Source of the DNA: Astropecten irregularis
Taxonomy: Eukaryota > Echinodermata > Asteroidea > Paxillosida > Astropectinidae
Direction of reading: 5' to 3'
Assembly: GCA_963971285.1 (NCBI GenBank)
Contig: OZ020244.1
Coordinates: forward strand, 33,914,001-33,978,000
Length of the DNA stretch: 64,000 nucleotides
The position numbers were made by a program, and so were the translations under genes. Under the pieces are notes generated by a model. The model was not told the DNA's origin, did no database searches, and saw only the letters and a list, made by a program, of their open reading frames with translations. Shown piece by piece: positions 16,886 through 61,200 of this stretch. Position 1 is the first letter of the stretch, and every line of letters starts with the position of its first letter.

Positions 16886-16976
16886 ATGAGGCCTACATGG
16901 GGACTAGCTGCCTTGGCTTGGCTGCAGCTGATATTTGTAAGATGCGCTGAGGCATTCGATCCGTTTGATTATGATC
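16886..16976 (+). CDS. Exon 1: start codon and signal peptide
   Basis: Encodes 30 residues plus one base: a short basic start (MRPTWG), a hydrophobic core (LAALAWLQLIFV) and a likely cleavage site after AEA, then FDPFDYD. The donor is C|GTAAGT at 16977, phase 1. A pyrimidine-rich tract ending in CTCAG at 16880 sits just five bases before the ATG, so this is probably the second exon of the transcript, with a non-coding exon upstream. An in-frame ATG at 16805 would add a T-rich-coded hydrophobic leader; I prefer 16886 because that upstream stretch looks like an intron end. Confidence 0.75.
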
Positions 16977-19900
16977 GTAAGTTGATTTCTCTCATTTATT
17001 TACTACATCAAATGTCTTGAAATTTGTAATAAGAAATTATTATTTGTGCACCATAATGTAATGAATGTATTTTTTTTATTTCATAAACATTACGACGCGT
17101 CGCAGAGTTAAGACGCATCCTTTCTCTACGGACTCACCGCATAGATGCGACGCGTCGCAGCTAGGACGCGTCGCAAATCGAGTTGCGATTCGTCGCAGAG
17201 CTTTATGAAATCGGCCCTAGGGGCCGGCCTAGCAAGTACATGTATAGAAGTTGCTGAAAGTGAGCTAAAGTGTTTGTTACAGGCGCGGTTCTACGGGGGG
17301 TGGGGGGTGGGGGCTAGGGGGCTGTAGCCCCTTGAAATTTTGTCTAGCCCCCCCCCCCCCCCAAAAAAAAAATATATATATGCAATTGAAAAAAACAACA
17401 AATTCATGAAAATAGTTGATTTTGTTCAGTTATTAAGCACCGATTACATAAAAAAAAAACGCGTTGTGTAGGCCATATGTGCATGTTTTGCGATCCCTAA
17501 TAAGAAATAGTAGAAGCGAGTGTCAGAAGAACCCAAAATATTGGGTCTTCTAGCCCCCGAAAAAAATAATGGCTCTTCATCTAGCTCTCCAAATATTTTG
17601 GCTCCATACAGAACCGCGCATGGTTTGTTAATACCCGAGGTAACCCGATGCAAGAAATTGGACCGTCCCAAATGAAGTTTAGTTAAACAACCATCACCAA
17701 ACTTTTGCGTTGAGTTTTTGATTTAATCATATATTTTTGTATTCCAATCAGGGGCCATTCGACTACATAATGCCATTAATTCACAGAGAGCGTATACATT
17801 TTTCTCAGTGAAATCTTTGTTGACATTATTTTTGTAAATTGATTTTTTCACCTGTCGTCTCTTATTGTCTTTATATTACCATAGCTTCAGACCCATGCAA
17901 CTTCCGCTGTGAGCGGTACTACGCACCGGTATGTGGGACTGATGGGCAGACGTATTATAGCACCTGTGTTCTACTGTCTTTCCGCTGTAAAAAGAAGGAT
18001 AACTCCCTAAGCGTCAGCTACGAAGGAAAATGTAGATTTATTCTTAAAAGTAAGTTGAAAGCTGGTTGAATCGAAATATTATGTCCACCTTCACTGACTA
18101 AAAGGTAGTATCATACTTTGGTAAGAAGCCAAAACAGAAATGTCCTCTGATTTACGTATAACTTACAGGATATGAAGATGGTGGTTGTAGAAACAAACCG
18201 TTAAAATTGTTCCGCCTGAAATGGTGTATTTATCCATTAATAAATTAGTAAAACAATGACCGAAAATCTTTTTGATCTTTTAAAAGATAAAAAATAAAAG
18301 AGAAAAGACTTAAAAAATACTGTGGATGTTTTTCACTGTTTTCTCAAAAAGTGGGCACCGTATGGGACTGATATTTTCACAGATGACTGTTACTGTATCT
18401 GTCTTGATATTTTTACCCATGAATTTGTATTTCTTTCATAAAAACCAAAGTATGATATTACCTTTGAAAGCAAATCTGTGAACATTTCTGTTATGTTACC
18501 AATCAAGTACTGACCTTTAAAATTTATGGTAAGTCAGTGAATGTAAATGTGCACCGCAAGAGGGCGCACTACACTGCTTGCATGACTGCTTGTGACTGTA
18601 AACATAACACTCACAGCTACAGTGGCCTTATTAAAAGTAAAAATGTTGTCCTGGATTCTTTTACTTGAGACTGGTGTTGTGGCCAGTTTTTCACAGCTTC
18701 GACCTTGGCCATGGCCTCAATCTGGGTAAGGTCTTCTTAGAGTCTTGACCTTTAATGTCCAAAGCTTGTTCACTGACTCATTTCCGGCCTGGCATTGATT
18801 GTTTGGGGGATCAATTGATTTTATAATATAATGAATGGATGACCTCTTGAAATTTTTAATTGTTATTTTTCTCTTGGGGGGGGGGGGGGAGCTATATATT
18901 GGGGTTAGTGTCTTTTACTGGTAAGAGTTCACAAGTTGGTATGATACCTTTAAAGGGAATAAAACAACTTGGTAGTTTCTACTGTTCCCAAATGATATTT
19001 TTTATTCAGCAAATGTTTCAGAGTCCTTAAAACCCCAGAGAGAAGAATTTTGTTCAACATTTCAGTTTTAAAATACAATTTTTTACGCACTCATTGCGAA
19101 CTTGAAAACTGCCTGTTGGCCATTTTGTCTTTTCTGGCTAGTCACGTTTAGTCTGGTACCTATACAGCCAATTTACTATTCTAATTTTCCTATGCGCTCT
19201 GTAATATTTATCTTATTACAACTTTGCTGGCCTTGGCCTTGGCCTTGGCTCTGGCCTTGGCCATGAACTTGACTTCTCTTCTGTTTATTACGATGACTAA
19301 AGAAAAGTTTAGGAAACAATCCTTTAAACCCACATGCACATACCCCTTGACAGGCCTTGAATTTAGTTCTGAAAGGGGCAAGGCCACTCTTCCATTGCAA
19401 GGGGCACTTCCATTGGAAAATCATAATGTCTATGGAAACATTTGAAGGGGCACCAAGGCCAAGAACAAGGGCAACTAAGGCCATGGCCTCTGTGGCCTCT
19501 GTGGCCTCTGTGGCCTCCGTTAAATTCAAGCCTTGCCATGATATATCGTATGAAAAAAATCCCATCTGTCTGTACTTAAATCGTTATCTAATATGTCATC
19601 TGTTGGGGATGTATAAACTTGTCAAATTGAAGGAAAAAGTTGCAAGGGTGAGAAGATGAGGCGTTTGGGACTCGTGGGCTGGGTGATGAAACTTGGAAAG
19701 GGTACACCGGATAATTTGATTATATTTATCCCTCATTGATCTTGTCTGCTTACTGCTTGTTGTCTGGTGAAGCCAACCTTGACCCATTGTGCAACTTATA
19801 AACACCTGCTCCAAAGAATTTGTGTGCGTGTATAGAAATGAAAAAGGACCCTAACCCTAACCCTAACCCTAACCCTAACCCATTGGCGCCCAGGAAGTAA

Positions 19901-22900
19901 GATTCCCTCATCCTCTGAAGTGCAGACAGATGAGTTTATTCATCAAATTTTTTTTTTTTCATTTCTATTTCCTCCACCAGTGGAAGTTGTTTGCCCCAGG
20001 AATTGCCCGGAGTTAGTCATCCCAGTCTGTGGAACGGACGGCGTCACCTACATGAACAAGTGCTACCTCGAAGCAGCCGCATGTCAAGGAGATAATTCCC
20101 TGACGGTTCAAAGCGAAGGCCACTGCTTACACTCAGGTTGGTATGGGTGACTGATTTCTGCTCCATTGTATAGAACTTTATAGTATTAGCTTTGACCTAG
20201 AGGTCTACTGTGTGGTGGCCTAGTGGTCAGGGGCCGAGATCACTTCAGCTTTTTGATCATCGCTAAAGCCCAAATCTATGGCTAAACGGAAATCGATTGC
20301 TACTTTGTGTAGCAATTTTCCGTTTAGCGATGGATTTGGGCTTTAGTGAAGATCGCAAAGCGTTAGTGAAAGCGGCCCCTGGTGTGTCTTACCAGAGTTA
20401 GCCTCAGCTAGGAAGAGAGGCCGGTCTTTATCAAGATCTTGTGGTCGAACTACAGAGTGTGGGTTCGAATCCAGCCATAGGCTAGTGGTGCTTGCATCCT
20501 TGGACAAGACGCTTTATCACATATTGCTTCTCTTCACCCGGTAGTAAATTGGTATCTGCGAAGGTAGAGATGGCTTTGTGCTTGATTAGCCTTTTTGTAC
20601 CTTACAACAGCCGGGGCTGTATACAGCCTAGGGAGTTGACATTGCTTCAGGAATGTAAGTGAAGCCCAATGACCAGGGATAATAGAGAGACATCACATTT
20701 TGATTGTGATATGCGCTGTATAAAAGCAATTTACAATGTATAATAGGCCTATAGCTAATGGGAGACTTTGGTGAATCGGTCTTGGGTCTTCAAGTCAACA
20801 GCGCACGCGCACGCACAACAGCGCATGCGCATGCACGCGCAAAACAACGCGCGCATGCTCACAATTGCGTGCGCATGCGCTGTTGACTTGAAGACCGATT
20901 CTCAAAAGTCTCCCATTGTGGGTTAGAAGCTCTAATGGTCCATAATAGTGCTCAACTCATTCCTTTAAAGGTAGTATCATACATGGGCAAAAATACTGAG
21001 ACAGATACAGTCATCTGTGAAAATTTCAGTCCCATATGTTGCCCACTTTTTGAGAAAACAGTAACAAGTATTTTCTCTTTTATTTTTGATCTTTTAAAAG
21101 ATCAAAAAGATTTTCGGTCGTTGTTTTACTATTTTCTGGATAAATACACAATTTCAGGCGGAAAAATGTTAACAGTATGTTTCTATATCTTCATACCCTG
21201 AAAGTTATACGTAAATCTGTGAAAATTTCTGTTTTGGTTCCTTATGATACTACCTTTAAGAGTTGTAGAATCTGTAGACTTAAATTAGAAGACAGAATAA
21301 TAGAGCAGTCAAACATTTGTGCCAGTTGTGAAGTACAGGACACTGTCCCAGTACAGTCCCAGGATTATATGAACAGCTGTTGCACGAACTTGAAAAGGCA
21401 CAAATGCATAGCACTGATACATCATAATTACCACTTGCTGCGTTGACAGACAAAACAAGACTCAGTATAATGACTAAGTATAGTTTAACTTACAGAAAAA
21501 AGCAGTATGTGCGCAGTTTCACGGCTTCTGACTGCCAAACGAACAAAGATAATTGATTTTTTGGGACACCACCAACGTAGGGCTGGATAGCTCAGTTGGT
21601 AGAGCACCTGCACAGGAGGTCGCCGGTTCGAATCCCGCTTCAGTCAATTTTTCTTTGTTCACCTTTTTAAGTGCAGAAAGAAAATCACAATCTTAACCAC
21701 TTTCGCATTGATTTATTTGTATTTTGCTCCACAAACTTTTCTATAGTTATTGTGAGTCTTTTTAGTGTCAAATTCTGAAAACATAATTTTCCCTCCGAAT
21801 TCCTTGAAAACTCCGCCGACATTCACAAAACTTTGCTTGTTGATGTTAAGCACAATCACAGTAAAAGTGTGTTTGGTAAGAGTAATTCTTAAAATTTAAT
21901 TCCACTGTCTTATAGGATAGAGTACAGCTGCGAACCAATGATATAGCTCCTTTGGAAAATACAACCAGTTGGCTCTTTAGTTGATTTACAATGAAACCAG
22001 GAGATGCTATTCATTTACTGTGTAGAAACCAGAAATACAAAGTTACAAACCTTTTTCTAATGTCCTCTTGTGGCTAGAGCTGATAGATACAAACAAATTT
22101 GCTTAGCGCCCAAAGTCTTGCTTGTGCGTATTCGGTTGCATGTCAATTGCTGCATACTAAGGTGGTTCTTGCTTAGCGTGCAAATGACATGTAATTTGGG
22201 CCTGTGGGCATGCATGTCTTGCAATACAACATATTTTTGTGCCATTTAGTTGATTATTCATGCTATAAAGCAGTTTAATGAAAATAATGAAATTTGAACC
22301 TGTTTGGGATAAGTAGGTCACATTTGCATTTGGTTGCCCCCACTATATGTATGAGTGGTGATCTTGATGTTCTGTCTTTTCTTAAGTATCATCCGGCGAC
22401 ACACACGCACACACAAAAAGACGACAAAAAGTACATGGTGTGACTTGAATGACGAAATCCCCTCTCATGATCCGGAGTCATCACACTTGGCCCACTTCTG
22501 CTATGACCTTGAATTAACTTCCCCCTTAGGATTCTATAATCCCACATGATACCAGGCTGTTGTGGCTTGTTGTATTCAAGGACCAACAGCTTCACATTGC
22601 CGATTTGTGGGATCCTCCCTCGTCAGTCAGCAGAAGCACTGACGTTATCTCCTCAAAGAATACGACCTTGAACGTGCATCTGTCACTACATCAATCATGC
22701 TTGTGGTTCCGAGGATGTTTCATATATGATTTGACATTGGCGACCCACCTACTGCTGGGAATAGGAAATCATTATTGCTGACTGGTAGGCAGGCTGAGGA
22801 AGCACTTCAGACTATTTTAAGCCAATTCAGGCTGAATGTTCTCGGAGACGTTCTCAGTTAAAAGTAATCCAGTCAGCTTCCCTTCTGGTGTACTTGATCA

Positions 22901-25900
22901 TTTCACGATTAAAATCCGGCATCCGCTTTGCGTGGTCCGGCCCTGATATACCGTTTCACTTGTCTGCAGCATTGCTAATGTTGCGTGCATCTTAAATAAT
23001 CCTTGGGATATAGTTGGTATGTGAGTGGTTTTGTTGCTTCTAATTGGCAAATGCACAAAGATGATCGAGAGTTTGTGACACTGCCAAACACAGGGCTGGA
23101 TAGCTCAGTTGATAGCACCAGTATTACATTATCCAGGTCTTATGTTCAAATCCCACTTGAGTCATTTCCATTTGTTTACCTTGCAATGACTTTTAAAATT
23201 AGTTAATTCAGTTTCCCTTTTTTTTTTTTTTGTTCAAGTAAAAGCTGGCATCCAAAAAATGGCATCAATTGCAATTTGCAAGCCTTGTGTTAACAGGGCT
23301 TTGAGGGAAATATGTAGAGAATCCTTCTGCAAAATTGAACTAGACAAATTACTAGATCATATAGCAGGTTGATCTTGAGGACGCTTGGGGATAAAGAAAA
23401 ACAATAGTTAGATTGCTGAATTGAGCATCAAATTGAAAATGAATTATTGTACGCCGGATATGCTTTACGAAACTTAACAAATTTACAACTGCTATAGGTA
23501 AAAGGAATGGAATTAACAACAGAAATTCACACGAAACACTAAACAATCTTTAAGTTATATTGAACACTAAGACTACCAGCTCAGAACTAAACAAATGAAA
23601 AATATAATGAATGCAAGTAATAAAGTGATGCAAATTGCTCATCAGCCAATATAATGATCTGAAATTGATAAAATGCTTGGAGTTAGGAGGGCTTCATGCT
23701 TTTTGATCAGACTAGCAGGATCTTTATCGAAGGCTAAAAAAAGCCTTCGTTAAAGATCCTGCTAGGATCAAAATGCACGAGGCCCTCTTACATGTAACTC
23801 CAAGCATTTCGAAAAATTTAATTATTTGAAGTTTAAAGGGAAAAAAATATGCCCAAGTTCATTGCTTAAAGGGATGGTACAGAACTGGTTTTTGTGACAA
23901 AACCGTTGCCGACAGTGTAAGCACATTATGTAATCTATCATATACCTTAACTGACAAACCTGTAGAAGTTTGAGGTCAATCTGGGTCACAAGAAAATAGT
24001 GTAAACCCGTTTACACATTTCAACGATATTATGCGTTCATAATAAAACGCTTCGAAGTGATTTATTCCAATCGGAAAATAGTGTCATTTATTTCTCAACG
24101 AATATGGCATTTCAGACAAAAACATTTCATGGGATGTTTTCTCCTATCATCACCATTATACTGTGTAAGTTTTATGTGAATCTGTGATCTCGAATGATTC
24201 TGTACCATCCCTTAAACTATTGTTCACCTCAGACTTTTCAAACCGATTTTGAATCTCTTGTTTGTGTGTGTCTTTAGAAGCTGCAAGGAGGTGTAGCACT
24301 GACTATCCGCTGAAGTTCAGGCCAGTGTGCGGTCGAGATGGGAAGACTTACCTCAATAGGGAAGTTCTACAAGGAGCTGCCTGCGTGAACAACAACCCTA
24401 CCCTCGCTATACACGTACACAGGGGCATATGTGAATTTGGAAGTAAGTTAAACAGAGCATATATGATTTGCAAAGATGTGCGTTTTGGCTGAATTTGGTA
24501 CTTTAACAGAAATGAAGGTCTAAAAGGTAGTATCATACTTTGGTTTTTGTCAAAGAAGTACAGATTCATGGGCAAAAATATCAAGACAGATACAGTAACA
24601 GTCATCTGTGAAAATTTCAGTCCCATATGGTGCCCACTTTTTGAGAAAACAATGAAAAACTGCCACAGTATTGCTTAAGCCTTTTCTCTTTTATTTTTGA
24701 TCTTCTAAAAGACCAAAAAGATTTTCGGTTGTTGTTTTTCAAATTTCTGGATAAATATACCATTTCAGGCGGAAACAATTTAACGGTATATTTCTACAAC
24801 CACCATCTTTATACCCTGTAAGTTATACGTAAATCTGTGAACATTTCTGTTTTGGTTTCTTACCAAAGTATGATACTACCTTTAAACTTCCTTACAGACG
24901 TTGTTTCATGTACCTTTTTTACGCTTTGTTCATCTGGATAGCAGAAATACGACCGATCTGGATAGCAGAAATACGGCCGAAATAATCTTGCTCCCCATTG
25001 AATCCTTCACGGTTATACCACGCATTCGAAATGCTAAAAGATTCGTTTGGACGAATGATCTTTTTAAAAGACACTAAATCTTGTTTTCCTTGAATAACCC
25101 AGCATCTGATGAACCAAGATTTCCCATGGTGACTGTTTGCACTGTTTATGAACTGTTGAGTCCATTTTCTGTCTCAAACTCAATAATTTTTTTTGTGAGG
25201 CCTTGCAAATCCTCGAAATATCCACTAGATCGTGGACCGAGTCTAGTGATTTCATGTCAGTCTAGTAAAGTGTGTATTGCACTAGTCCGGCTGTCTAGTG
25301 ATTTTATGTTTCTTGCACAATTAAAATGCTGCCTAAATTGATGATTTTTGACACAATATTGCATACAATTACTGTTCTCCTATGTACATGAATGCCACAG
25401 GTCTATTGAAAAAGGTCCAGGTCCAGTAAAATGCTTTGGTTATTCTATCTGCTGTCCAGTGCTTTTTTTCATGAAATTCAAGTCCTGCATAGCAATGGTG
25501 AACTTGTGTTTTTAGTGTAGTGTCCATGTGATAACTTACCTTCAAAGGTAGTATCATACTTTGGTTTATGTCAAAGAAGTGCAGATTCATGGGTAAAAAT
25601 ATTAAGGAAAATACAGTAACAGTCATGTGGGAAATGTTCAGTTCCATACAGTGCCCTTTTTTGAGAAAACGGTGAAAAACGCCCACAGTACTCTTTCTGG
25701 ATAAATATGGCATTTCAGGCAGAAGAATTTTAATGGTTTGTTTCTACCATCACCATCTTTATACCCTGTAAGTCATTGTAGGTAAATCTAAGAAAATTTC
25801 TGTTATGGTATGCTACCAAAGCATGATTGTAACTTTAACGAAGAGTGAGGTCTGCTGAAAAGCTGCACAGTATCATAGACCGAATGTATTAATGGATCCA

Positions 25901-28900
25901 AAAAAGTCTTCAAACAAAGTTAACTAAAAGATAATGATCCTTTCACTACTTTCACAAGAACACATTTATCATTTTAAGTTCTATTAATTTGATTCGTCAT
26001 TATACTTCATCACCGTTGATGGATATGAATGAAAGATTCCATTGTTATTTGATTAGATCTATCCATCAGTGTTCCTGTTATTCACCCTTCAAAGTTAATT
26101 TGTTCCAGTCCCTACATTTCCTTACAGCTGATTGTATTATTGTTCCTTCTAGTTCATCCGCTCATCATGCATTGTAACCATCAATATATTTTGACAGCTA
26201 GGCCCTTTTCCAAACTCCGGCACCGGCTTCTGCTCCGGCTCCATTTCATTAATCCATCCTAAAATAACGGGTATCAAAATAGAGGCTTCTGGCTATAGTT
26301 TGGAAGTAGATGTACTCTATTTTGAACAAGAAAACAGAAATTCAACTTCAATGAAAAACCACAACCTATATTTCAGCATATGGATTACAGTGTCGGATCC
26401 GGAGCCTGGGCCAGAGCCAAGGTTTGGAAAAGGGCCGATTTGTGTCTGAGGGGCACAAGCTCAGTGCTGTATTTGTTGAATGTTGAAACTTAATCAGCTG
26501 TCAAGTAGGCCTATTTCACCACCAATTCAGTCCCAAGTCAACTCTAACCGAAGCCAACTCAAATCTGTGCCAACTCCGTCCATGCCAAATCTGCAACCCA
26601 AGTCTGAGCTTGGCCTACATTACAACAGTCGGAACGTGCACAAAGTTCTCCCCAAAACACAAACACTGAATTATTTTCTTGAAAGCGTAAACATCGATTT
26701 TGATAAAATTTTAGCAGTTGTTAGTTATGCATGATATGCATTTTGAAAAAATTGTATGATTGTAATGAATGCTTTCTTCCCAGTGATGTACTTAATAATC
26801 AGAAAATGAAAGTTCTGTGAGTTGTTCTGAGATGGAAATCTGAGACTGAGTTGACTAAAGAAGGCATTAACCTGGAACTGACTTTAAGTCGGCCTAAGTT
26901 GACTTGGGACCAAGTTGGCTATTAAAGGACCGATTTGACCTGAAAGCATATATCATAAGTCAATGCCTCCTGGAAGATTTCTTCAATGTGAAGTTACCAT
27001 TCCTGACATGTGATACTAATTATCATTGTAAAATTGTTATTTCTTTTTTTCCCCCAGGAAGGAGAGTGCCAAGAGACTGCAGAAGGTACCGCTGTGATGG
27101 AAACTATGAGGCAGTCTGCGGTACCGATGGCAGAACCTACATCAATGTCTGCATGATGTCTTACATAGCCTGTTTACAACGCGACCCGTACATGAGACTG
27201 GTGCACCCTGGAGAGTGTCGTGATGAAGGTATGTAGAGCAAATCCATTCTGCCAGGTTTGGGATGTTGACAAGGCAAGCAGTACTAGGCACGCCCTGGAA
27301 TTTCAGTCGTTTTTTGGTCCATTTTGCCAAGCAGAAACAAACTTTTTGCAAACTTGATTTAAAAAATTTTGCGAACAGCCTTCCGAAAGCGACGATCGCT
27401 CGAAAGAAGACGTAAACATATCACGTACGATGCATTGTGCACACCGCATGCACACCGCATGGCCCGGCCCATGCAGCAGCAGCATTGCATCCAGGAAATT
27501 TCTCACTATTAAAAGAATGATCCTGAAAATTCTGTAGCATTTGTGTTTGTACAGGAATAGTAGAGTCACTGATTTATGCATTTCATCTTTATGCTTGTTT
27601 TTATAAAATAACAACAATTTCTTTTTATCCTGGTTGTTCTCTGCAGTTGTTGTTACACAGACATCGGTGAGGCCAACCAAGCCAACTACAATCACAAGAG
27701 CCCTGACAACCCAAGCGCCAACAATTGGACCTGACGTTGATGCTCAAACTCCACAGCCAGTACCACCAGTACAAGAACCAACCACAATGATAGTAGTTAT
27801 TCCTCCAGAACCGACGACAGCTGCTGCACCAACAGAGCCCATCACGACAGTTAAACCCACAACAGCGAAGGAGGTTACAACAACTGCACAACCTACAACA
27901 ACTGCACAACCTACAACAACTCCACCCACAACTGTACAGCCTATTGAAACGAAGGAGCCTACAAGAACTCAAAAAGTTACCACAAGTAGTCCTTCAACCA
28001 CTTTTAAGAAACCCACATCTTCACAACCAACATCAGGACAGCCTTCGATAACATCTCGAGAAGTGCCTACAACTGTAATGCCCTCTGAAACAGAAGGGCC
28101 TACTAGAACTCAAAGAGTTCCAACCACAACTATGACTCCCACAACTTTGGAGGAAACAATGCCCCCAGAAACAACAACAATGTCACCGCCCTCACCGACA
28201 TCTCCAGAAGCACCCACAACTATGGCAACCACTGAGAGAGTGGAACCTACCAGAACTCCTGAAGTTACTGAATCTGTAGAGTCTACAGTCAAAGTTGCAA
28301 TCACAACAGTGTCTTCCACAACAGAATCATCAACACCACAGCCTACGACATTATCTCCAGAGTCAGCTTCAACTCTTCAACCTGAGAAAATAACTGATCC
28401 TGGCAGAACTACACAAATGACTGCATCTGTTGAGCCTACAGCAGAAGAAGAAAAAGCAACCACAATGGTGTCTTCCACAGCTTTTGACAAAACCACCACT
28501 CTCACACCAACTACAAGGCCACAGCTCTCAACAACACCTTCATCAGAACCCACAACTGTTATGACCACCGAAAGAGTGGAGCCTTCAAAAACTCCAGAGG
28601 TAACCGAATCTGTGGAACCTACAGCTGAAGTATCAACCACAACAATATCTTCCACAACATCGAAGAAAACAACACCTTCAAAAAGGGTAACACTACAGCC
28701 CTCAGATGAAGATCCAGCATCACTTTCTACAACAGCACAGGCTACGACATTATCTCCAGAGTCAGCTACAACTCTTCAACCCGAGAAAATAACTGATCCT
28801 GGCAGAACTACACAAATGACTGCATCTGTTGAGCCTACGGCAGAAGAAGAAAAAGCAACCACAATGGTGTCTTCCACAGCTTTTGAGAAAACCACCACTC

Positions 28901-34900: not shown

Positions 34901-37900
34901 TTTTGACAGAAGGTTTGACAACTTCTGTCCCTCTGCAAAGTGATGGAAGGTTACCAAAGAGTACCACAGTGTATACTACACCAGTTCAAGGACCGGAAAC
35001 ATTCGTTACCGAAGCAGATTTCAGAACTGAAGAGTTTTCAGGCATCTACAGTTCACCAGAATTGAAGACGACATCGTCAATGAAATCCACTGATGTAGAT
35101 TCCATGACAACTGAAACATTGAAATTTACAACAATCTCTGTTAGTCGGCCAGTCAAGTCATCTCACTTACCACAAGAGCTAAGTATTACTACAAAAGCAT
35201 CAACATCTATTCAGAGTAGTACTACTGTCAGTCCAGCAGAAGTTGTATCATCTGAAGCCCCTGCTGCTACAACTTCAGGTCTCAAACCAGATATGGAGTC
35301 AGCAACATCACCATCGGAATTTATTACCTCTGATGAAACAACTGAACAGTTAATAACGACCACACAGATGGTCAAAGAAGTTGTGAAAACCTCTGTTTCA
35401 ATGGAGACTGATGTAAGCTTAATCGCAGAGAAAACCACACCCCACACAACTCCAGTTCAAGAAATAGTTGTTACCATGGATGAGACCACAACAGAAGAAC
35501 CTTCAGGCTTCTCTTCTTCACCAGTATCCATGAAGCAGACATCTTCAGCAACACCATTTGAGCAAACCACTGACATGGATTCCATGATAACTAGAGAGCC
35601 AGCCTTTATGGGAGAGAAAACATCTGCCATCCCATCGAGCACAGATTCTGCTGCACTTTCTGATGCGACGACAGAGAGCCCCAAGCCCAATGATGAAACA
35701 TCGTCAAGTAAGTCCCCTGCAACCACACCGGCATCATCCTCAACAGAAAGAGCAATGACTGATATTCCAAGCTCCACCATGGACACAGAAACACCTCTTG
35801 TTGATGGTGCAACAGACCAGCCAGAAACAGACACTCAGTTCTCTGGTACATCAAAACCTGTAACAACTGTGATGGAATTAGAAACAACGATGTTTGATGA
35901 CAAAAGTAAAGTGTCAACCACTACAGAATCATCAGGTTTAGGAAGTACACATGCTATGGGAACAATGCCTGCAGATGTAACAGGATTGATTGATGAGACA
36001 TCACCTGCAACAGTTGAAGTGGAAACACCAACGGAAGGAGTTACAGTCATGACCACCCTTCCTGCTTTGCCTCAAACAGAAAAGCTCGCTACATCATCTG
36101 TTTCACAGGAAGAGTTTGGAGACACTACAACAGCATCTTTATCTCCCGTTCAACGAAGCACTACTGCTAGTCCAATCAAATTGATGTCTTCTGAAGCCAC
36201 AGACAAGCCAGAAACTGTCTCTGAGTTCTCTGGTACATCAAGACCTGTAACGGTTGTGATGGAATTAGAAACAACGATGTTTGATGACAAAAGTAAAGTG
36301 TCAACCACTACAGAATCATCAGGTTTAGAAAGTATGCAGGCTATGGGAACAATGCCTGCAGATGTGACAGGATTGATAGATGAGACATCTCCTGCAACAG
36401 TTGAAGTGGAAACACCAACAGATGAAGTTATTGTCATGACCACCCTTCCTGCTTTGCCTCAAACAGAAAAGGCCACTACATCATCTGATTTACCAGAAGA
36501 GACTGGGGACACTACAACTTCATCTTTATCTCCCGTTCAAAGGACTACTGCTAGTCCAATTGATTTGATGTCTCCTGAAGCCACTGCTGCTACAACTGCA
36601 GGTCTCACACCAGATTTGGAATCAACTACAAGGGAACAGTTTTCCAAGACCACTCGGGTTGTTGAGATTTTGACAGAAGGTTTGACAACTTCTGTCCCAC
36701 TGCAAACCGATGGAAGGTTACCAAAGAGTACCACAGTGTATACTACACCAGTTCAAGAACCGGAAACATTCGTTACTGAAGCAGATTCCATAACTGAAGA
36801 GTTTTCAAGGTTCTACAGTTCACCAGAATTGAAGACGACATCGTCAATGAAATCCACTGATGTAGATTCCATGACAACTGAAACATTGAAATTTACAACA
36901 ATCTCTGTTAGTCGGCCAGTCAAGTCATCTCACTTACCACAAGAGCTAAGTGTTACTACAAAAGCGTCAACATCTATTCAGAGTAGCACTACTGTCAGTC
37001 CCGCAGAAGTTGTATCATCTGAAGCCCCTGCTGCTACAACTTCAGGTCTCAAACCAGATATGGAGTCAGCAACAACACCATCGGAATTTACTCCTGATAA
37101 AACAACTGAACAGTTAATAACGACCACACAGATGGTCAAAGAAGTTGTGAAAACCTCTATTTCAATGGAGACTGATGCAAGCTTAACAGCAGACAAAACC
37201 ACACCCCACACAACTCCAATTCAAGAAATAGTTGTTACCAAGGATGAGACCACAACAGAAGAACCTTCAGGCTTCTCTTCTTCACCATTATCCATGAAGC
37301 AGACATCTTCAGCAACACCATTTGAACAAACCACCGACATGGATTCCATGACAACTAGAGAGCCAGCCTTTATGGGAGAGAAAACATCTGCCATCCCATC
37401 GAGCACAGATTCTGCTGCACTTTCTGATGCGGCTACAGAGAGCCCCAAGCCCACTGATGAAACATCGCCAAGTAAGTCCCCTGCAACCACACTTGCTTCA
37501 TCCTCAACAGAAAGAGCAATGACTGATATTCCTAGCTCCACCATGGAAACAGAAACACCTCTTGTTGATGTTGCAACAGACCAGCCAGAAACAGACACTC
37601 AGTTCTCTGGTACATCAAAACCTGTAACGGTTGTGATGGAATTAGAAACAACGATGTTTGATGACAAAAGTAAAGTGTCAACCACTACAGAATCATCAGG
37701 TTTAGAAAGTACGCAGGCTATGGGAACAATGCCTGCAGATGTAACAGGATTGATAGATGAGACATCTCCTGCAACAGTTGAAGTGGAAACACCAACAGAT
37801 GAAGTTATTACAATGACCACCCTTCCTGCTTTGCCTCAAACAGAAAAGGCCACTACATCATCTCATTTACCAGAAGAGACTGGGGACACTACAACAGCAT

Positions 37901-40900
37901 CTTTATCTCCCGTTCAACAAAGCACTTCTGCTAGTCCAATTGAATTGATGTCTTCTGAAGCCACAGACAAGCCAGAAACTGTCACTGAGTTCTCTGGTAC
38001 ATCCAAACCTGTAACAGTTGTGATGGAATTAGAAACAACGATGTTTGATGACAAAAGTAAAGTGTCAACAACTACAGAATCATCAGGTTTAGAAAGTACA
38101 CAGGCTATGAGAACAATGCCTGCAGATGTAACAGGATTGATAGATGAGACATCTCCTGCAACAGTTGAAGTGGAAACGCCAACAGATGAAGTTACAGTCA
38201 TGACCACCCTTCCTGCTTTGCCTCAAACAGAAAAGGTAACTACGTCGTCTGATTTACCAGAAGAGTCTGGGGACACTGCAACAGCATCTTTATCTCCCGT
38301 TCAAAGAGGGACTACTGCTAGTCCAATTGATTTGATGTCTCCTGAAGCCACTGCTGCTACAACTGCAGGTCTCACACCAGATTTAGAATCAACAACAAGG
38401 GAACAGTTTTCCAAGACCACTCGGGTTGTTGAGATTTTGACAGAAGGTTTGACAACTTCTGTCCCTCTGCAAACCGATGGAAGGTTACCAAAGAGTACCA
38501 CAGTGTATACTACACCAGTTCAAGGACCGGAAACATTCGTTACCGAAGCAGATTTCAGAACTGAAGAGTTTTCAGGCATCTACAGTTCACCAGAATTGAA
38601 GACGACATCGTCAATGAAATCCACTGATGTAGATTCCATGACAACTGAAACATTGAAATTTACAACAATCTCTGTTAGTCGGCCAGTCAAGTCATCTCAC
38701 TTACCACAAGAGCTAAGTATTACTACAAAAGCATCAACATCTATTCAGAGTAGTACTACTGTCAGTCCAGCAGAAGTTGTATCATCTGAAGCCCCTGCTG
38801 CTACAACTTCAGGTCTCAAACCAGATATGGAGTCAGCAACATCACCATCGGAATTTATTACCTCTGATGAAACAACTGAACAGTTAATAACGACCACACA
38901 GATGGTCAAAGAAGTTGTGAAAACCTCTGTTTCAATGGAGACTGATGTAAGCTTAATCGCAGAGAAAACCACACCCCACACAACTCCAGTTCAAGAAATA
39001 GTTGTTACCATGGATGAGACCACAACAGAAGAACCTTCAGGCTTCTCTTCTTCACCAGTATCCATGAAGCAGACATCTTCAGCAACACCATTTGAGCAAA
39101 CCACTGACATGGATTCCATGATAACTAGAGAGCCAGCCTTTATGGGAGAGAAAACATCTGCCATCCCATCGAGCACAGATTCTGCTGCACTTTCTGATGC
39201 GACGACAGAGAGCCCCAAGCCCACTGATGAAACATCGCCAAGTAAGTCCCCTGCAACCACACTTGCATCATCCTCAACAGAAAGAGCAATGACTGATATT
39301 CCAAGCTCCACCATGGACACAGAAACACCTCTTGTTGATGGTGCAACAGACCAGCCAGAAACAGACACTCAGTTCTCTGGTACATCAAAACCTGTAACGG
39401 TTGTGATGGAATTAGAAACAACGATGTTTGATGACAAAAGTAAAGTGTCAACCACTACAGAATCATCAGGTTTAGGAAGTACACATGCTATGGGAACAAT
39501 GCCTGCAGATGTAACAGGATTGATAGATGAGACATCTCCTGCAGAAGTTGAAGTGGAAACACCAACAGATGAAGTTATTGTAATGACCACCCTTCCTGCT
39601 TTGCCTCAAACAGAAAAGGCCACTACATCATCTGACTTACCAGAAGAGACTGGGGACACTACAACAGCATCTTTATCTCCCATTCAACGAAGCACTACTG
39701 CTAGTCCAATTGAATTGATGTCTTCTGAAGCCACAGACAAGCCAGAAACTGTCTCTGAGTTCTCTGGAACATCAAAACCTGTAACAGTTGTGATGGAATT
39801 AGAAACAACGATGTTTGATGACAAAAGTAAAGTGTCAACCACTACAGAATCATCAGGTTTAGAAAGTACACAGGCTATGGGAACAATGCCTGCAGATGTA
39901 ACAGGATTGATAGATGAGACATCTCCTGCAACAGTTGAAGTGGAAACACCAACAGATGAAGTTATTGTCATGACCACCCTTCCTGCTTTGCCTCAAACAG
40001 AAAAGGCCACTACATCATCTGATTTACCAGAAGAGTCTGGGGACACTACAACAGCATCTTTATCTCCCGTTCAACGAAGCACTACTGCTAGTCCAATCGA
40101 ATTGATGTCTTCTGAAGCCCCTGCTGCTACAACTGCAGGTTTCACACCAGATTTGGATTTGACTAAAACAACTGAAGAATCTTCAAAGACGACACGGATT
40201 GTTGAAATTTTGACAGAAGGTTTGACAACTTCTGCTCCAATGGAAATTCGTACAAGACTACCACAGGGTACTGCCAAGTACATCTCTGAAGTTCCAGAAA
40301 TAGAAGCACTTGTTACCGAAAAGGATTCTACAACAGACGAGCTGTCAGGCCTCTCCGACTCACCTGAATTCAAGACAACACCATTCAAGAAAGCCTCTGT
40401 GACAACTGAAAGAATGAGCTCTACAACTATGTCGTTTAGTTCAACTCCTGTTAAAGCATCAGATTCACCAGACGAGCCCAGTGCAACTACAGAGTCATCC
40501 AAACCTACTATTCATAAGAGCACGACTGCTAGTCCTGTAGAAATAAAGTCATCTGCAGCCCCTGCTGCCTCAACTCCAAGTCTCAAACCAGATGTTGAGT
40601 CAACTACAAGTCAAGCAGAAAGCAAAACACAAGGTATGGAACTCACTCCATCTGGAACGATAGAGCAGTTTTCGAAAAGTACACCGATTGTCATCACTGA
40701 GATGATTACAGAACATTCTGCAACGTCTGTTCCCCTGGTAACTGATGCAGACATACAAGAGGACAAAACCATGTTGTATACAACTCCAATTCAAGAAACG
40801 TTTGTTACCAAGGAAGACATTGCAACTGAAGAATTTTCAGGCTCCTCTACTTCACCAGAATCCAAAATGCAAACATCTCAGACAACATCATTCAAGGAAA

Positions 40901-46900: not shown

Positions 46901-49900
46901 GTATACCAGAAACTCGGGCACCAGTTTCTGAGCCCTCTACAAAGGAAGAACCAGGGCTGACGATGCCTGCTACTGGCGGAACAATGAAATCTGAAATCAC
47001 CAAAGAAGGAGGTAAATTTCTCATTCCACCACCACCTCCAACCAGCCCTCCTGTGATGCCAGCCTCAGTGAAGACAAAAACCCTACCAAGTTCTTCACCC
47101 TCAGCTGCAACTACCTCACCGGATGTTGGAATGGACGGAACAGATGCTGGAGTTGAACCAAGCACAGTGACAAGCATGGGTCCAAATACAGGAGCAACAG
47201 ATAAACCTATTTCTGATGTACAATTTACCAAAATTAGTGCGGGCTCCCCAATCGTGATGGCCAAGGAGAAGGCTACCACAATGAGGCCAATTGTGGACAG
47301 CACAGCTCATGACAAATCAGAGACTTTGGCTAAGTTCATCCAAACAACCTCCGCTGGGCCCACTGATGCTCCTTTGACAGTCGATCCAAAAGTTACTGTC
47401 GAACCAGTTGACAAAACTCCAGCTGCATCAACTGAGACATCAGTAAGACCAACAACGCTGCAGCTTATATTGATGACATCATCCAGCAAAGAACAACCAA
47501 CAACAGCTAAACCAGCAAGTGTGCTTACGACTCTGAAGGACATTATATCCCGCTCAAGCAAGACTGAGCCAATGACCACTGGTGACACAAGAAAAACACC
47601 GGTAGCTGAAATCATCTCCTCAAAATCTACCACTGTGAAATCAACCTCTACAGAAGCTACTACACCTGCACCGTCTGATGAACGTGCAGCATCCACAACC
47701 TCTGGTGTGATGCAGACAACAACTTTAGGTGCATCAGAGAGTACAGACTCGGTTGCAACCACAGGGAGCTACTGGATCACAGATCTAGTAACATCAACAA
47801 TCAAGGCTGTCACAGATGCTGTGACCGGACGAGGGAGCACTCAAGCTGCTACCGATCCTGTGAACAAGGCTACTATAGCTACCAAGACAACTCAGACAGG
47901 TAGGAAACTTTAAACAAATAAAACTATGTTGGAAAGATACAGTCTTGAAATTTTAGCAGAAGAGTCATCTTAAGCTTTTCTAAAAGAATACTAAAAGTGT
48001 TGTTCCACTTGCAAGGCTGTTTTAGAGCATCTTGTAAGGAGTAAAACCCTGCTCTTTTCGGAATCAATTGACTTGTGATTTGATGCCTCTAATAATCTAC
48101 TGCTTACTGAATCTGTTCCTAGTGCATTGCTTGGTTAGCTATTGGTGCTTGATTATTTTCTGGTTGAAATAATATTCAATAAATCACATGTAAGGACAAA
48201 AATACTGAAAGTCAAGCTGTTTGGGCATATTGGTGGAAAGTATCATTTATAAAGACCAGACAAGTCGAAGAAAAAAACAGAAAAAATTCTTCATGGTAAA
48301 ATCTGTTAAATTAGAAATAACATTGACCAAGGCTAGGCACCAGATGTAGCAATTTACATGAATGTACAAAGTGTACAATACATGTATGTTTATACCCTTT
48401 TCGTCTGTGACTCTGTTAAACTTGCGCACACAAAACCTGTTTGATTTGTTCCATTTAGAAATTTTGACGAAGCATAATTTGTACATTTTTGCATTCTTCA
48501 ATATTTCTTCCTTCTTTGCAGGCACTGATGGTACTCCTCACGGCTCACCTCTTGCTCTCCAAGTCTCAACATCCAAATCAGGAGAAGAGACCACATCTCC
48601 ATCTGCTACCAAGATGAGTGCCTCCTCTTCCTCCACCTCTGCACTCTTCACAGCATCCCAGCAGGAAGGGGCAACCTCCGGCATGGGTGAACTAACCCAG
48701 GAACAAGGCTCTGGCTTCAGTCTGGAGATCTTACCTGAACCGACACAGGACATAAGGGTGTTTCAGCTGGTGAATCTGGCCGATAGAGTCACCAAACCGG
48801 TAGCAGGGAAGGCGACACCAAATGAGGCTGCAACCGCAGCAACAACAGCAGGCGATGGTCTTGCAACGACCCAGATGACCACAAGGCTACAGCCATCTAC
48901 ACATCCAGGTACTGAACAGTCTGTCATGTCTGCTTGAATAACAATCAGAAATCATGCTTTTCTTGAACCTATATGACCATGAGACTTAGCGGTATGCCAA
49001 TTTTCCCCAATGAAATGTCGCTCTGTTTACATTCATTTATAATGGATAAAGATCCAGCTAGGATCGAAACGAGTCAGGCCATCTTTACTCTAAGCACATT
49101 CATTAATGGGAGACTTTGAAGAACCGGTCTTCAAGTCAACAGCACATGCAATAAATTTTGAGCATGCACGCATTGTTTTGCGCGCGCATGCGTGTGCGTG
49201 TGCTGTTGACTAGAAAACTGGTTCTCCAAAATTTCCCATTGAATGTTCTTGGGTCTGACCACATTTAGCAACAAAAATTAATTTGTAGTAATTTGTGTAA
49301 ATATTGTAATTTTGTTCGCAAACAAACAAAAGTGACAAACCAAGATTTACGGGGAAAAAAACCAAATCCCAAAATGCAATACAGTTTCAACCTGAGACCC
49401 TTTATGTCCAATTTCTAATCACTTATCTAAATTTGTTCAACTTTTTTTTGAGGGGCTGTTATTTTCCAATCAGCCATATACTAACAGCAAAACATTTACC
49501 AATCCCAAATGCATGTAATTTCTGCTTTCCAATGAAAGCCAAAGAAATCAGTGTACTTGAAATTAACAATATTAAAAAAATGTTTGCTATCCCGTTCCAC
49601 CTTTAGAATAACTGTAGATGCATGCTGTTCTATGCATGCAGATGCTTTATATTGATAACATAACTAAATAATCTGGAAAAAATTGACATGTAGCAAATAA
49701 TTTGTATGTTATCTTTAAAGGTAGTATCATACTTTGGTAAGAGACCAAAACAGAAATGTTCACAGATTTACGTGTAATTTCAGGTTATGAAGATGATGCT
49801 AATAGAAACCTAAAAATGTATCGCCTGAAGTGGTGTTTTTCTCCAGAAAATAGTCAAACAACGACCGAAAATCTTTTTGATCTTTTAAAAGATCAAAAAT

Positions 49901-50541
49901 AAAAGAGAAAAGACTTAAGAAATACTGAAGTCGTTTTTCATGATTTTCTCAAAAAGTGGGCACCGTATGGGACTGTAATTTTCACAGATGACTGTTACTG
50001 TATCTTCCTTGATATTTTTGCCCATGAATCTGTATTTCTCTGACGGAAACCAAAGTATGATACTACCTTTAAGAAGCAGAAATGTTTTAATTTCTAATAA
50101 AAACCAAGTCTCTGGTAAAATCAGCCTATTAGCACTTGAGGCAAAGAAAACAAGAAACACTCTGTCCCCTTTAATGTACGCAGCTAAGAAAGTTTGACTG
50201 AGATTCTATTTTCGTATTGAAACATCTTGCAAAAAAAAAAACCCGAAATCTTTACTTCAAATATTCCCAAATGCATCATTATTCATCATATACATTGTTG
50301 AATTTGAAACTCGTCCTTACAAGAAATTTCATTTTCCACTGCTGAAATCTGAAATCCTGCAATTTTTGCATTTGTATACCTGTATGAATTATATCGGCTG
50401 AGTTTCACAAGTTGAAATTGGGATATTTGTATATGTTTTGTTTTTCATTTTGCAGTTGGTCTAAATGTGATGTTCATCCTCCTTACCGCAGTGTTTATCA
50501 TCATCATCATAGCTTTACTTGTGTACAAGTTCTGGCTTTAA
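16886..50541 (+). CDS. Giant Kazal-headed transmembrane mucin (whole gene, 8 coding exons)
   Basis: Join of 16886-16976, 17885-18049, 19981-20136, 24278-24442, 27058-27228, 27647-47899, 48522-48908 and 50456-50541. All seven introns are GT-AG and phase 1, and the joined frame stays open for about 7,157 residues. Order: signal peptide (about 1-23), four Kazal domains (about 31-249), a Thr/Ser/Pro repeat region (about 250-7000), a Ser/Thr linker (about 7001-7129), and a transmembrane helix with a five-residue tail. Kazal domains are serine-protease-inhibitor folds with three disulfides; PTS repeats are normally O-glycosylated mucin stalks. The protein is inferred to be a type I surface mucin holding Kazal modules at its outer end. 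I see no SEA, EGF or von Willebrand D module. No orthologue is recognised, so no symbol is given. A transcript could confirm the joins; introns might hide small exons I missed. Confidence 0.82.
17079..17210. repeat. GACGCGTCGCA-rich inverted element in intron 1
   Basis: Motif GACGCGTCGCA or close variants occurs four to five times between TTTCATAAA and its complement TTTATGAAA. Confidence 0.65.
17282..17620. mobile_element. Inverted-repeat element with poly-G/poly-C segments in intron 1
   Basis: Ends GCGCGGTTCT and AGAACCGCGC. Contains a G-run block near 17300 and a C-run at 17348-17362, which could pair. Confidence 0.6.
17885..18049 (+). CDS. Exon 2: Kazal domain 1
   Basis: A 55-codon exon, phase 1 on both sides. 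All six cysteines are present in Kazal spacing: C-NFR-C-(7)-C-GTDGQTYYST-C-(6)-C-...-GKC. The residue two after the second cysteine, the usual P1 reactive site, is Arg, as in trypsin-type inhibitors. The acceptor is ambiguous: AG occurs at 17883-17884 and again at 17889-17890, six bases apart and both in frame, so two residues may be optionally included. Donor A|GTAAGT. A MITE begins about 50 bp after the donor. Confidence 0.88.
18101..18465 (+). mobile_element. MITE family A, copy 6, intron 2
   Basis: Full-length copy starting about 50 bp after the donor of Kazal exon 2. Confidence 0.87.
19205..19530. repeat. GGCCTTG / GGCCTCTGT simple repeats in intron 2
   Basis: Short tandem arrays of CTTGGC (19222-19262) and GGCCTCTGT (19481-19520), giving spurious Leu-Ala and Ala-Ser-Val frames. 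Confidence 0.75.
19849..19880. repeat. Interstitial telomere-type repeat (CCCTAA)5
   Basis: Five perfect CCCTAA units plus a partial, the animal telomere motif, in intron 2 about 100 bp before Kazal exon 3. Confidence 0.93.
19981..20136 (+). CDS. Exon 3: Kazal domain 2
   Basis: A 52-codon exon, phase 1 on both sides, after a strong pyrimidine tract ending in CACCAG. It carries six cysteines in Kazal order: C-PRN-C-(7)-C-GTDGVTYMNK-C-YLEAAA-C-...-GHC. The P1-equivalent residue is Glu, which in known Kazal inhibitors suits glutamyl-specific proteases or marks a domain kept for binding rather than inhibition. The donor is G|GTTGGT, weaker than the neighbouring donors but in the right phase. Confidence 0.86.
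20212..20740 (+). mobile_element. tRNA-derived SINE (family G), interrupted
   Basis: Head GTGGCCTAGTGGTCAG and T-arm GGGTTCGAATCCAGCCAT, then a body shared with 63671-64000 (GCATCCTTGGACAAGACGCT, ATGACCAGGGATAAT). MITE F copy 2 lies between head and body. Confidence 0.82.
20230..20380. mobile_element. MITE family F, copy 2, inserted in a SINE
   Basis: Palindrome with outer ends GGGGCCG / CGGCCCC and arms TAAAGCCCAAATCTATGGCT and complement. It splits the SINE at 20212-20740. Confidence 0.78.
20757..20917. mobile_element. MITE family C, copy 1 (GCGCATGC-rich palindrome)
   Basis: Inverted arms AATGGGAGACTTT ... TCTTCAAGTCAACAGCGCA around a centre of alternating purine-pyrimidine GCGCATGCGCATGC. 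Other copies at 49105-49240 and 61564-61640. Confidence 0.82.
20964..21259 (-). mobile_element. MITE family A, copy 7
   Basis: Copy with both ends intact and an internal deletion near the left end. Confidence 0.85.
21503..21665 (+). mobile_element. tRNA-like SINE (family D), copy 1
   Basis: Contains GGATAGCTCAGTTGGTAGAG (A-box-like), GGTTCGAATCCCGCT (B-box-like) and tail CAATTTTTCTTTGTTCACC. The anticodon arm is shortened, so this is a tRNA-derived repeat, not a working tRNA gene. Confidence 0.78.
21670..23635. other. Intron 3 sequence
   Basis: Part of the 4.1-kb intron between Kazal exons 3 and 4. Apart from SINE D copy 2 I see no exon-like frame with flanking splice sites. Confidence 0.5.
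22960..23185 (+). mobile_element. tRNA-like SINE (family D), copy 2
   Basis: Longer 5' body (ATCCTTGGGATATAGTTGG, TATGTGAGTGGTTT), then GGATAGCTCAGTTGATAGCA and a degraded B-box. Confidence 0.7.
23639..23820. mobile_element. Palindromic repeat (family I)
   Basis: Arms of about 80 bp: AAATGCTTGGAGTTA ... AGCAGGATCTTTATCGAAGG and complement. Partial related copies at 53849-53946 and 49042-49101. Confidence 0.75.
23866..24215 (+). mobile_element. MITE family B, copy 2
   Basis: Ends TTAAAGGGATGGTACAGAA and TTCTGTACCATCCCTTAA. It ends about 60 bp before Kazal exon 4. Confidence 0.86.
24278..24442 (+). CDS. Exon 4: Kazal domain 3, lacking the C2-C4 disulfide
   Basis: A 55-codon exon, phase 1 on both sides; acceptor TCTTTAG, donor A|GTAAGT. 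Aligned to exon 3, spacing is kept exactly, but the second Kazal cysteine is Tyr (C-STD-Y-PLKFRPV-C) and the fourth is Glu (GRDGKTYLNR-E). The other four cysteines remain. In the Kazal fold C2 pairs with C4, so a whole disulfide has been lost rather than one unpaired cysteine being left behind. The exon sits between two MITEs, ending about 60 bp before it and starting about 80 bp after it. The reading frame is intact, so this looks like a functional variant, not a pseudo-exon. Confidence 0.8.
24521..24885 (-). mobile_element. MITE family A, copy 8
   Basis: Full-length copy starting about 80 bp after the donor of Kazal exon 4. Confidence 0.87.
25542..25839 (-). mobile_element. MITE family A, copy 9
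   Basis: Copy with a central deletion; left end clear, right end degenerate. Confidence 0.78.
26201..26436. mobile_element. MITE in intron 4
   Basis: Ends GGCCCTTTTCCAAACT and GGTTTGGAAAAGGGCC, with inner CCGGAGCC-type complementarity. Confidence 0.75.
27058..27228 (+). CDS. Exon 5: Kazal domain 4
   Basis: A 57-codon exon, phase 1 on both sides; acceptor CCCCCAG after a T/C tract, donor G|GTATGT. Six cysteines in Kazal order: C-RRYR-C-(7)-C-GTDGRTYINV-C-MMSYIA-C-...-GEC. It begins with a basic stretch (RRRVPRD). The P1-equivalent residue is Gly, so tight inhibition of trypsin- or chymotrypsin-like enzymes is not expected. It is joined by a short 418-bp intron to the giant repeat exon. Confidence 0.87.
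27647..47899 (+). CDS. Exon 6: 20.25-kb single exon encoding the Thr/Ser/Pro-rich mucin domain
   Basis: One uninterrupted exon of 20,253 bp (6,751 codons), phase 1 on both sides; acceptor CTCTGCAG at 27646, donor ACAG|GTAGGA. The product is dominated by Thr, Ser, Pro, Glu and Val, with no cysteine that I can find and only two tryptophans (near 33068 and 47773). Five zones: irregular Thr/Pro repeats (to about 28.2 kb); a 364-residue repeat (28.3-31.6 kb); a short diverged stretch (31.6-33.5 kb); a highly conserved ~589-residue repeat (33.6-40.2 kb); older diverged repeats (40.2-46.6 kb), then a unique tail with a proline run (IPPPPPTSPP). N-glycosylation sequons are few (for example NIS near 29140 and 30230). 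Dense Ser/Thr predicts heavy O-glycosylation; this is inference. Confidence 0.9.
28324..31640 (+). repeat. 1,092-bp (364-residue) in-frame tandem repeats of the mucin exon
   Basis: The same motif (ESSTPQPTTLSPES) recurs at 28324, 29416, 30508 and 31363, giving periods of 1092, 1092 and 855 bp. Each full period holds two versions of a sub-block beginning TLSPESATTLQPEK, about 399 bp apart, so the unit is itself an old duplication (399+693). All periods are multiples of three, so the frame is never broken. Copies are nearly identical over long stretches, indicating recent expansion or homogenisation. Confidence 0.88.
33575..40200 (+). repeat. ~1,767-bp (588-590-residue) in-frame tandem repeats, 3.7 copies, with higher-order structure
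   Basis: The marker encoding PSGFSSSP occurs at 33731, 35501, 37265 and 39035, so periods are 1770, 1764 and 1770 bp. Each period contains two 129-residue sub-blocks (TD[KQ]PET...FSGTS[KR]PV), 387 bp apart at 34042/34429, 35812/36199 and 39346/39733. Copy 1 matches copy 3 better than either matches copy 2: around 34.75-35.7 kb and 38.3-39.2 kb (offset 3534 bp) the protein is almost identical, while copy 2 has its own changes, for example EPETFV and TPDKTTEQ. Confidence 0.87.
40200..46660 (+). repeat. Old, diverged mucin repeats
   Basis: The same building blocks recur in weakened form: FSG-S-SPES/LSGLSSSP near 40360, 40830, 41560, 43020, 43510, 44815 and 46465; TTEQ-SKTTQ-V-E-LTE segments; and acidic FDDKSKV-like segments. 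Spacing is irregular and substitutions are many, so these are older copies that are no longer homogenised with the 33.6-40.2 kb array. The frame remains open throughout. Confidence 0.7.
48522..48908 (+). CDS. Exon 7: membrane-proximal Ser/Thr linker
   Basis: A 129-codon exon, phase 1 on both sides; acceptor TTCTTTGCAG, donor CCAG|GTACTG. It is rich in Ser, Thr, Ala and Gln but less repetitive than exon 6. A central stretch (EILPEPTQDIRVFQLVNLAD) is hydrophobic/acidic and could be a short folded or binding segment. No cysteine. It does not look like a SEA autoproteolysis domain: I see no GSVVV-like cleavage motif. Its phase-1 donor is compatible both with the transmembrane exon at 50456 and with the Kazal exon at 53547. 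Confidence 0.82.
49105..49240. mobile_element. MITE family C, copy 2
   Basis: Same inverted arms (AATGGGAGACTTTGAAGAAC and complement) and GCGCGCATGCGTGTGCG centre. Confidence 0.8.
49714..50072 (+). mobile_element. MITE family A, copy 10, intron 7
   Basis: Full-length copy with both inverted ends, between the linker exon and the transmembrane exon. Confidence 0.87.
50456..50541 (+). CDS. Exon 8: transmembrane helix, five-residue tail, stop
   Basis: Acceptor TTCATTTTGCAG, phase 1. It encodes 28 residues: VGLNVMF, a long run of aliphatic residues including five consecutive Ile (FIIIIIALLV), then YKFWL and TAA at 50539-50541. The hydrophobic run is about 22 residues, right for one membrane-spanning helix. 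A Lys just after it fits a type I orientation (positive inside). The tail is too short for a signalling motif. This exon would end the membrane-bound form. Confidence 0.8.
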
Positions 50542-53546: not shown

Positions 53547-53714
53547 ATCCAAGTAGCTGTCCCCAATGTGAGCCTGACCTGTGTCCAGTGTGTGGTTCCG
53601 ACGGGCAAACTTACCAATCGGCATGTGACTTGAAACGTGTTGCCTGTCTACGTGGCTCAACGACACTAGTGATCAAGTACGAGGGAGACTGTATACCTGG
53701 GCTACTAGAGCTAG
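53547..53714 (+). CDS. Kazal domain exon with a seventh cysteine (alternative 3' exon or separate gene)
   Basis: A 56-codon exon, phase 1 on both sides; acceptor TTCCCGCAG, donor CTAG|GTAAGA. The Kazal pattern is clear (VCGSDGQTYQSAC...VAC...GDC), but there are seven cysteines: C-PQ-C-EPDL-C-PV-C-. The extra one lies between canonical C2 and C3. The P1-equivalent residue is Pro, which argues against standard inhibition. It lies 3 kb after the transmembrane exon on the same strand, and its phase fits the donor of exon 7 at 48908. I found no signal-peptide exon between 50541 and 53547 that would start a separate gene. Confidence 0.8.
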
Positions 53715-60900: not shown

Positions 60901-61200
60901 GTAGCAGTAAACAGACCAACAGCAAAACAGCAAAAAATGTATCAATAGTGGCAAAAATCAGCCGTGACATAAAGTAACATCAGAAGTGGGCACAAAAGCA
61001 AAGCTCATTATTCATGGCCCAAAAGAATGCTTTTAAATTCATGTAACAGAGAGATCTTTGTGTACAAACAGTTGCAATCAAGGACAACTGCTGAAATATT
61101 TCCAGCAAATATATCAGTACAAAGGAGTTGAGCTATGCTTCTTTAAAGGGCTGTTCTCTATTGCCTGAACAAAGCAAAGCTACAAGACAATGTACCTCAT

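Follow-up and report, generated by a model that had tools for sequence, protein, structure and literature searches.

Gel-forming mucins of the MUC2 and MUC5 type are secreted proteins having a giant stalk rich in proline, threonine and serine (PTS) and cysteine modules, VWD and cystine-knot, at both ends. Transmembrane mucins of the MUC3/MUC17 type combine a giant PTS exon with an exon for the transmembrane (TM) helix and a SEA or EGF module. A giant mucin gene of another composition is located in the sea star Astropecten irregularis, within a stretch of 64,000 nucleotides (positions 33914001–33978000 of contig OZ020244.1; hereafter, the window) of a 475.7-Mb assembly (GCA_963971285.1), against which the genome searches were made. 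With a probability of about 0.82, a figure covering the architecture and the secretion, the conserved product of this gene is a secreted mucin of 7,249 residues with Kazal modules at its two ends, four at the N-terminus and two at the C-terminus. Like the gel-forming mucins, this predicted protein would be secreted, has a giant PTS stalk with cysteine modules at both ends, and possibly forms a C-terminal disulphide dimer; unlike them, it carries Kazal modules instead of VWD and cystine-knot, neither of which was found by Pfam in the window protein. The giant PTS exon, and possibly a TM exon, are shared with the MUC3/MUC17 type, but the conserved form probably has no membrane anchor, and Pfam detected no SEA or EGF module (PTS pieces at E 0.01; exons 2–5 matching Kazal families only). 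The Kazal runs and the possible glycosaminoglycan sites are reminiscent of agrin and other multi-Kazal matrix proteins, and among solved structures agrin gives the closest match by sequence. However, in the window protein a mucin stalk is flanked by Kazal modules on either side, and the laminin-G and EGF domains that are hallmarks of agrin were not found in it by Pfam.

All exons of the gene lie on the forward strand. Exon 1 (16886–16976), with a phase-1 donor, encodes a signal-peptide-like N-terminus and the first mature residues; the signal peptide proposed in a first-pass annotation of the window fits both hydropathy and the alignment with urchin N-termini, on which it was judged without a dedicated predictor. 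Exons 2 to 5 each encode a Kazal module, K1 (17885–18049), K2 (19981–20136), K3 (24278–24442) and K4 (27058–27228, with a basic cluster before it). Exon 6 (27647–47899) is a giant PTS-rich exon of 20,253 nt without cysteine codons, and is followed by the PTS-rich exon 7 (48522–48908, 387 nt), which is common to the two possible endings of the gene. One ending is a candidate alternative last exon (50456–50541) encoding a TM helix, a five-residue tail and a stop codon (50539–50541). The other consists of two phase-1 exons downstream of exon 7, exon 8B for Kazal K5 (53547–53714) and exon 9B for Kazal K6 and the conserved protein end (54781–54974, stop codon 54972–54974). Exons 1–7 and the TM exon are joined in a single frame through seven phase-1 introns, each of them GT-AG, and together encode 7,157 residues; the eight-exon model of the first-pass annotation was thus reproduced in its splice sites and phases. 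The junction of exon 7 to K5 and K6 is also open in frame, and gives the 7,249-residue form. The single exon of about 20 kb in that model was borne out as well: no stop codon occurs in the 20,253 nt of exon 6, where about 353 are predicted from base composition, and it is therefore beyond reasonable doubt that exon 6 codes for protein. In a reading-frame scan, the stop-free stretch spans 27607–47913 (6,768 codons). On the minus strand of 27649–47899, stops number 90 in one frame, as opposed to 432 and 478 in the remaining two; this stop-poor antisense frame is probably an effect of composition, and would account for the long open reading frames (ORFs) seen in antisense. Neither the head (the four N-terminal Kazal modules) nor the C-terminal pair occurs a second time in the genome: ranked by E-value, the matches that follow are 45 and 54% identical, respectively, in a search that took in these two regions.

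The architecture is conserved in other echinoderms. Protein searches covered targets of 0.55–1.75 times the query length, so that shorter, fragmentary or very divergent homologues may escape. The head gave five matches among short proteins, of which the named ones are from arthropods and none is a named echinoderm, and 63 matches out of 662 candidates among long proteins. The latter include P0009, a 'mucin-17-like' protein of 6,100 residues from the sea urchin Lytechinus pictus, and P0017, a 'mucin-2-like' protein of 3,607 residues from the crown-of-thorns Acanthaster planci, which is N-terminally truncated and begins within the K4 exon; the other rows are mostly named agrin, with further multi-Kazal proteins making up the remainder. 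When the L. pictus head served as query, eight matches were obtained out of 139 candidates, and these added a second L. pictus 'mucin-17-like' model (P0069), 'mucin-17-like' of Lytechinus variegatus (P0070) and 'mucin-17' of Strongylocentrotus purpuratus (P0071). These five models were taken as the orthologue set, and the remaining rows were left out for their different architecture. The order of four and two Kazal modules is present in all of the four sea urchin models from three species, and a C-terminal Kazal pair homologous to K5 and K6 closes all five. Their precomputed domains belong to Kazal families, except that P0071 alone also has PF16552. The head is identical to P0009 at 54.5% (133/244), to P0070 at 53.1% and to P0071 at 53.3% of positions, and the K4 piece to the A. 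planci protein at 69.0% (40/58). For the C-terminal pair, identity is 72.8% (83/114) with A. planci and 47.7–49.5% with P0009, P0070 and P0071; P0069 was left out of these comparisons. A. planci aligns unbroken through exon 7, K5 and K6, with 43.7% identity over 430 columns, when the last 1,049 residues are compared. A TM helix was found by hydropathy in none of the five models, in which the highest 19-residue value outside the signal peptide is 1.19 against 3.43 for the TM exon. Because sea star and sea urchins share the second Kazal pair without a membrane anchor, the conserved form is probably secreted. The orthologues further resemble the window protein in the head (its last module only in A. 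planci), the cysteine pattern and the cysteine-free PTS stalk, and differ from it in their shorter stalks (3,432–6,112 residues in the four measured, against 6,887) and in having no counterpart of the candidate TM end.

Kazal families (PF00050 and PF07648) match four stretches in exons 2–5 above curated cut-offs, in agreement with the four modules annotated earlier, and K3, K5 and K6 each pass alone. Cysteine spacing is identical in the window protein and the four tabulated models, apart from a one-residue difference in the K2 module of the window protein. Past the signal peptide, there is an odd count of 35 cysteines both in the window protein and in each of the three tabulated urchins, against 19 in the truncated A. 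planci protein. K3 is without cysteines C2 and C4, a paired loss common to the window and the three tabulated urchin models; it is an old four-cysteine variant of the Kazal module (24278–24442). K5 has seven cysteines in all five models. Its extra cysteine is located three residues ahead of C3, a spacing kept by the window protein and by all four tabulated models. An AlphaFold model of K5 (pLDDT 89.5) has a Kazal fold, with structural matches to the Kazal domains of Fstl1 and ovomucoid. Since this odd cysteine count is conserved, it suggests that K5 may join two chains as a disulphide dimer. At the P1 position, which we take to be the second residue past C2, K1 has Arg in all of the four complete heads tabulated (window and three urchins), and this residue aligns with Leu of ovomucoid domain 3, whose Leu18 is named P1 in structure titles. 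K1 combines six cysteines with a conserved P1, as a canonical inhibitor does, and is therefore a plausible protease inhibitor. The display of protease inhibitors envisaged by the first-pass annotation is accordingly plausible for K1; P1 varies in K2, K4, K5 and K6, and K3 lacks two cysteines. A basic cluster between K3 and K4, present in the compared heads, could be a convertase site or a binding site for sulphated glycans.

The stalk encoded by exons 6 and 7 comprises 6,887 residues, is free of cysteine, and contains 45% Ser, Thr and Pro in total and 40–53% per 500-residue window. A Pfam search at E 0.01 with three PTS pieces that cover both exons detected no domain in the stalk. Ungapped repeats (at least 70% identity over 60 residues) cover 54% of the stalk, and a higher-order repeat within exon 6 (34042–40119, forward strand) consists of four units of about 589 residues with two 129-residue copies each; an exact-word search for the starts of the units was fruitless, and tandem-repeat coordinates were used instead. 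Among the repeat copies, pooled non-synonymous divergence (pN, 0.059) is close to the synonymous one (pS, 0.074) by a simplified counting, and therefore little constraint acts on the repeat sequence. Stalk length ranges over 3,432–6,887 residues in five proteins, the window protein being the longest and the other four being orthologues. Glycosaminoglycan can be attached at Ser-Gly sites that follow an acidic residue. In the window protein, 25 of 41 unique Ser-Gly contexts are acid-preceded, against 188 of 714 for other serines (p = 7e-6), and enrichment is also seen in three urchin proteins (26/35, 22/32 and 34/52); unique contexts were counted since repeats inflate the raw numbers. A hybrid of mucin and proteoglycan is thus possible.

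How the protein ends has to be weighed among several explanations. The first-pass annotation had described a membrane mucin ending at 50541, displaying its Kazal modules far from the membrane; K5 and K6 would then be a separate downstream gene. A giant mucin-like protein with an unusual Kazal head was upheld, and the membrane anchor as the feature of the main product was not, because the two in-phase Kazal exons downstream had been missed and all five orthologue models end in them. The end of the protein was therefore probably mis-assigned, and a membrane form is possible only as an alternative isoform. That the membrane form is the sole product is very improbable: its exons do join in frame and weak signal-peptide-like frames do exist ahead of K5, but K5 and K6 are the C-terminus proper of the orthologue models, which fuse the pair to the mucin, and no strong phase-1 signal-peptide exon was found in 50.3–53.5 kb that could begin an independent K5-K6 gene. 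A gene with two alternative last exons, in which exon 7 can be followed by the TM exon, for a membrane form of 7,157 residues, or by K5 and K6, for a secreted form of 7,249 residues, falls just short of an even chance. The TM exon lies between exon 7 and K5, and has an acceptor tract with 13 pyrimidines out of 15, the required phase and a 19-residue hydropathy of 3.43. On the other side, none of the five orthologue models ends in a TM exon, and a run of ATC lies inside the TM segment. The use of the TM exon as an alternative last exon is rated about even, because no other sequence examined supports it. Even odds are given to a gene that makes the secreted mucin only and never uses the TM exon; this fits its absence from all five models found, and has to set aside how rare such a hydrophobic segment is by chance in the genome stretches sampled. 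Poly(A)-like signals, which lie 576 nt from the TM exon and 1,351 nt from K6, do not decide either way, because those past K6 are even farther than those past the TM exon.

The rarity of the TM exon was estimated from 352,502 stranded bases, made up of 14 genomic stretches of 10 kb and of the window outside its exons, by a test devised after the fact, which counts against the switch. In 835 acceptor-plus-frame trials over three phases, one other segment reached a hydropathy of at least 3, and by eye it looked like a coding exon. When the cut-off was relaxed to 1.6, the control stretches yielded nine qualifying segments in 291 phase-1 combinations, one of them above 2.0. By our own arithmetic, about four trials are expected in the 4.6-kb interval between exon 7 and K5, so that the expected number of chance hits this strong is below about 0.01. 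The TM exon is thus not an easy chance hit, and that it arose by chance is unlikely. Nor does it appear to be a repeat, since the region matches itself alone in a genome search that skips very common words; this single occurrence also speaks for the switch.

The protein could also be mainly the core of an extracellular-matrix proteoglycan rather than a surface mucin, which is compatible with the other explanations and seems improbable. Sites of the acid-Gly-Ser-Gly form, 29, 31 and 58 in P0009, P0070 and P0071, as well as 36 acid-x-Ser-Gly sites in the window protein, point in that direction, but acid-Gly-Ser-Gly itself, so frequent in the urchin models, is absent from the window protein and occurs once in A. 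planci, and these raw counts are inflated by repeats.

A secreted mucin capped by four and two Kazal modules is the preferred reading, and several observations weigh against it or its details. The frames ahead of K5, although signal-peptide-like only weakly and with poor phase-1 donors (the best starts from ATG 52798), would suit a separate gene. The orthologues are predicted models, P0017, P0070 and P0071 being clusters of two to five member sequences in which further isoforms may be hidden. A small thiol could cap the odd cysteine of K5, or its partner could lie within the chain. P1 is conserved in K1 only and variable in K2, K4, K5 and K6, and the modules other than K1 may bind rather than inhibit. 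Finally, the Ser-Gly signal of A. planci is weak: 10 of 32 contexts are acid-preceded (p = 0.19 when compared with other serines and 0.022 when compared with other x-Gly sites).

From the sequence features, a mechanism can be proposed, tentatively as a whole. The stalk would carry dense O-glycosylation, and perhaps a few glycosaminoglycan chains as well, and would form a hydrated coat or matrix. The C-terminal Kazal pair would link two chains tail to tail via its conserved odd cysteine, taking the place of the C-terminal knot in gel-forming mucins, and the N-terminal head would project K1, whose P1 Arg may block trypsin-like proteases that would otherwise degrade the layer. In the window genome, the extra hydrophobic last exon may add a form that lacks K5 and K6 and is anchored in the membrane. 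In the way it works, the protein would come closest to a secreted mucin bearing functional caps. A bolder proposal is that one gene, with one stalk of about 6,900 residues, makes two mucins by the choice of the last exon, a tethered brush and a cysteine-linked secreted form. This is doubtful; if true, echinoderms would have invented their own version of the tethered/gel-forming split, which is spread over separate gene families in vertebrates.

Sea urchins and sea stars have a mucin family in common, in which Kazal modules replace VWD, cystine-knot or SEA. Because this family is built of Kazal modules, large mucins in echinoderms appear to be assembled from another set of modules. The architecture is new within a known kind of molecule, as the orthologue sequences are already in databases under automatic names, and no description of a Kazal-capped mucin was found in titles or starts of abstracts of open-licence PMC articles, among the matches listed. 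Disulphide dimerisation through the conserved odd cysteine, and a switch between tethered and secreted forms through the possible alternative last exon, can each be tested directly. Sfp12, a footprint protein of the sea star Asterias rubens, is described as threonine-rich and known only in part of its sequence (PMC9382459). As a lead, Sfp12 may possibly be a fragment of such a Kazal-capped mucin. PMI_021107 of the Patiria skeletal proteome is called 'mucin-like' (PMC5460417).

Another giant echinoderm protein with a Kazal architecture turned up in the searches: P0012 of the sea cucumber Apostichopus japonicus, with 5310 aa and 14 matches to a Kazal motif. Its Pfam accessions presumably stand for domains of the alpha-2-macroglobulin type. 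Introns of the mucin gene harbor several copies of a short inverted-repeat element resembling a miniature inverted-repeat transposable element (MITE). Its ends, GTAGTATCATACTTTG, have 17 matches with up to two mismatches at 7350–59510 of the window against 0.01 expected, including seven oppositely oriented pairs 283–341 nt apart. Upstream of the gene, a minisatellite at 10990–11449 (28-bp unit, 16.5 copies, 88% matches) yields ORFs of 239 and 203 codons, with no Pfam match above cut-off. A perfect 17-bp tandem repeat at 13341–13487 (8.6 copies) is probably recent because its copies are 100% identical. Downstream, a GCA/CAG-rich repeat at 60521–60945 contains an open frame rich in Ala, Ser and Thr.

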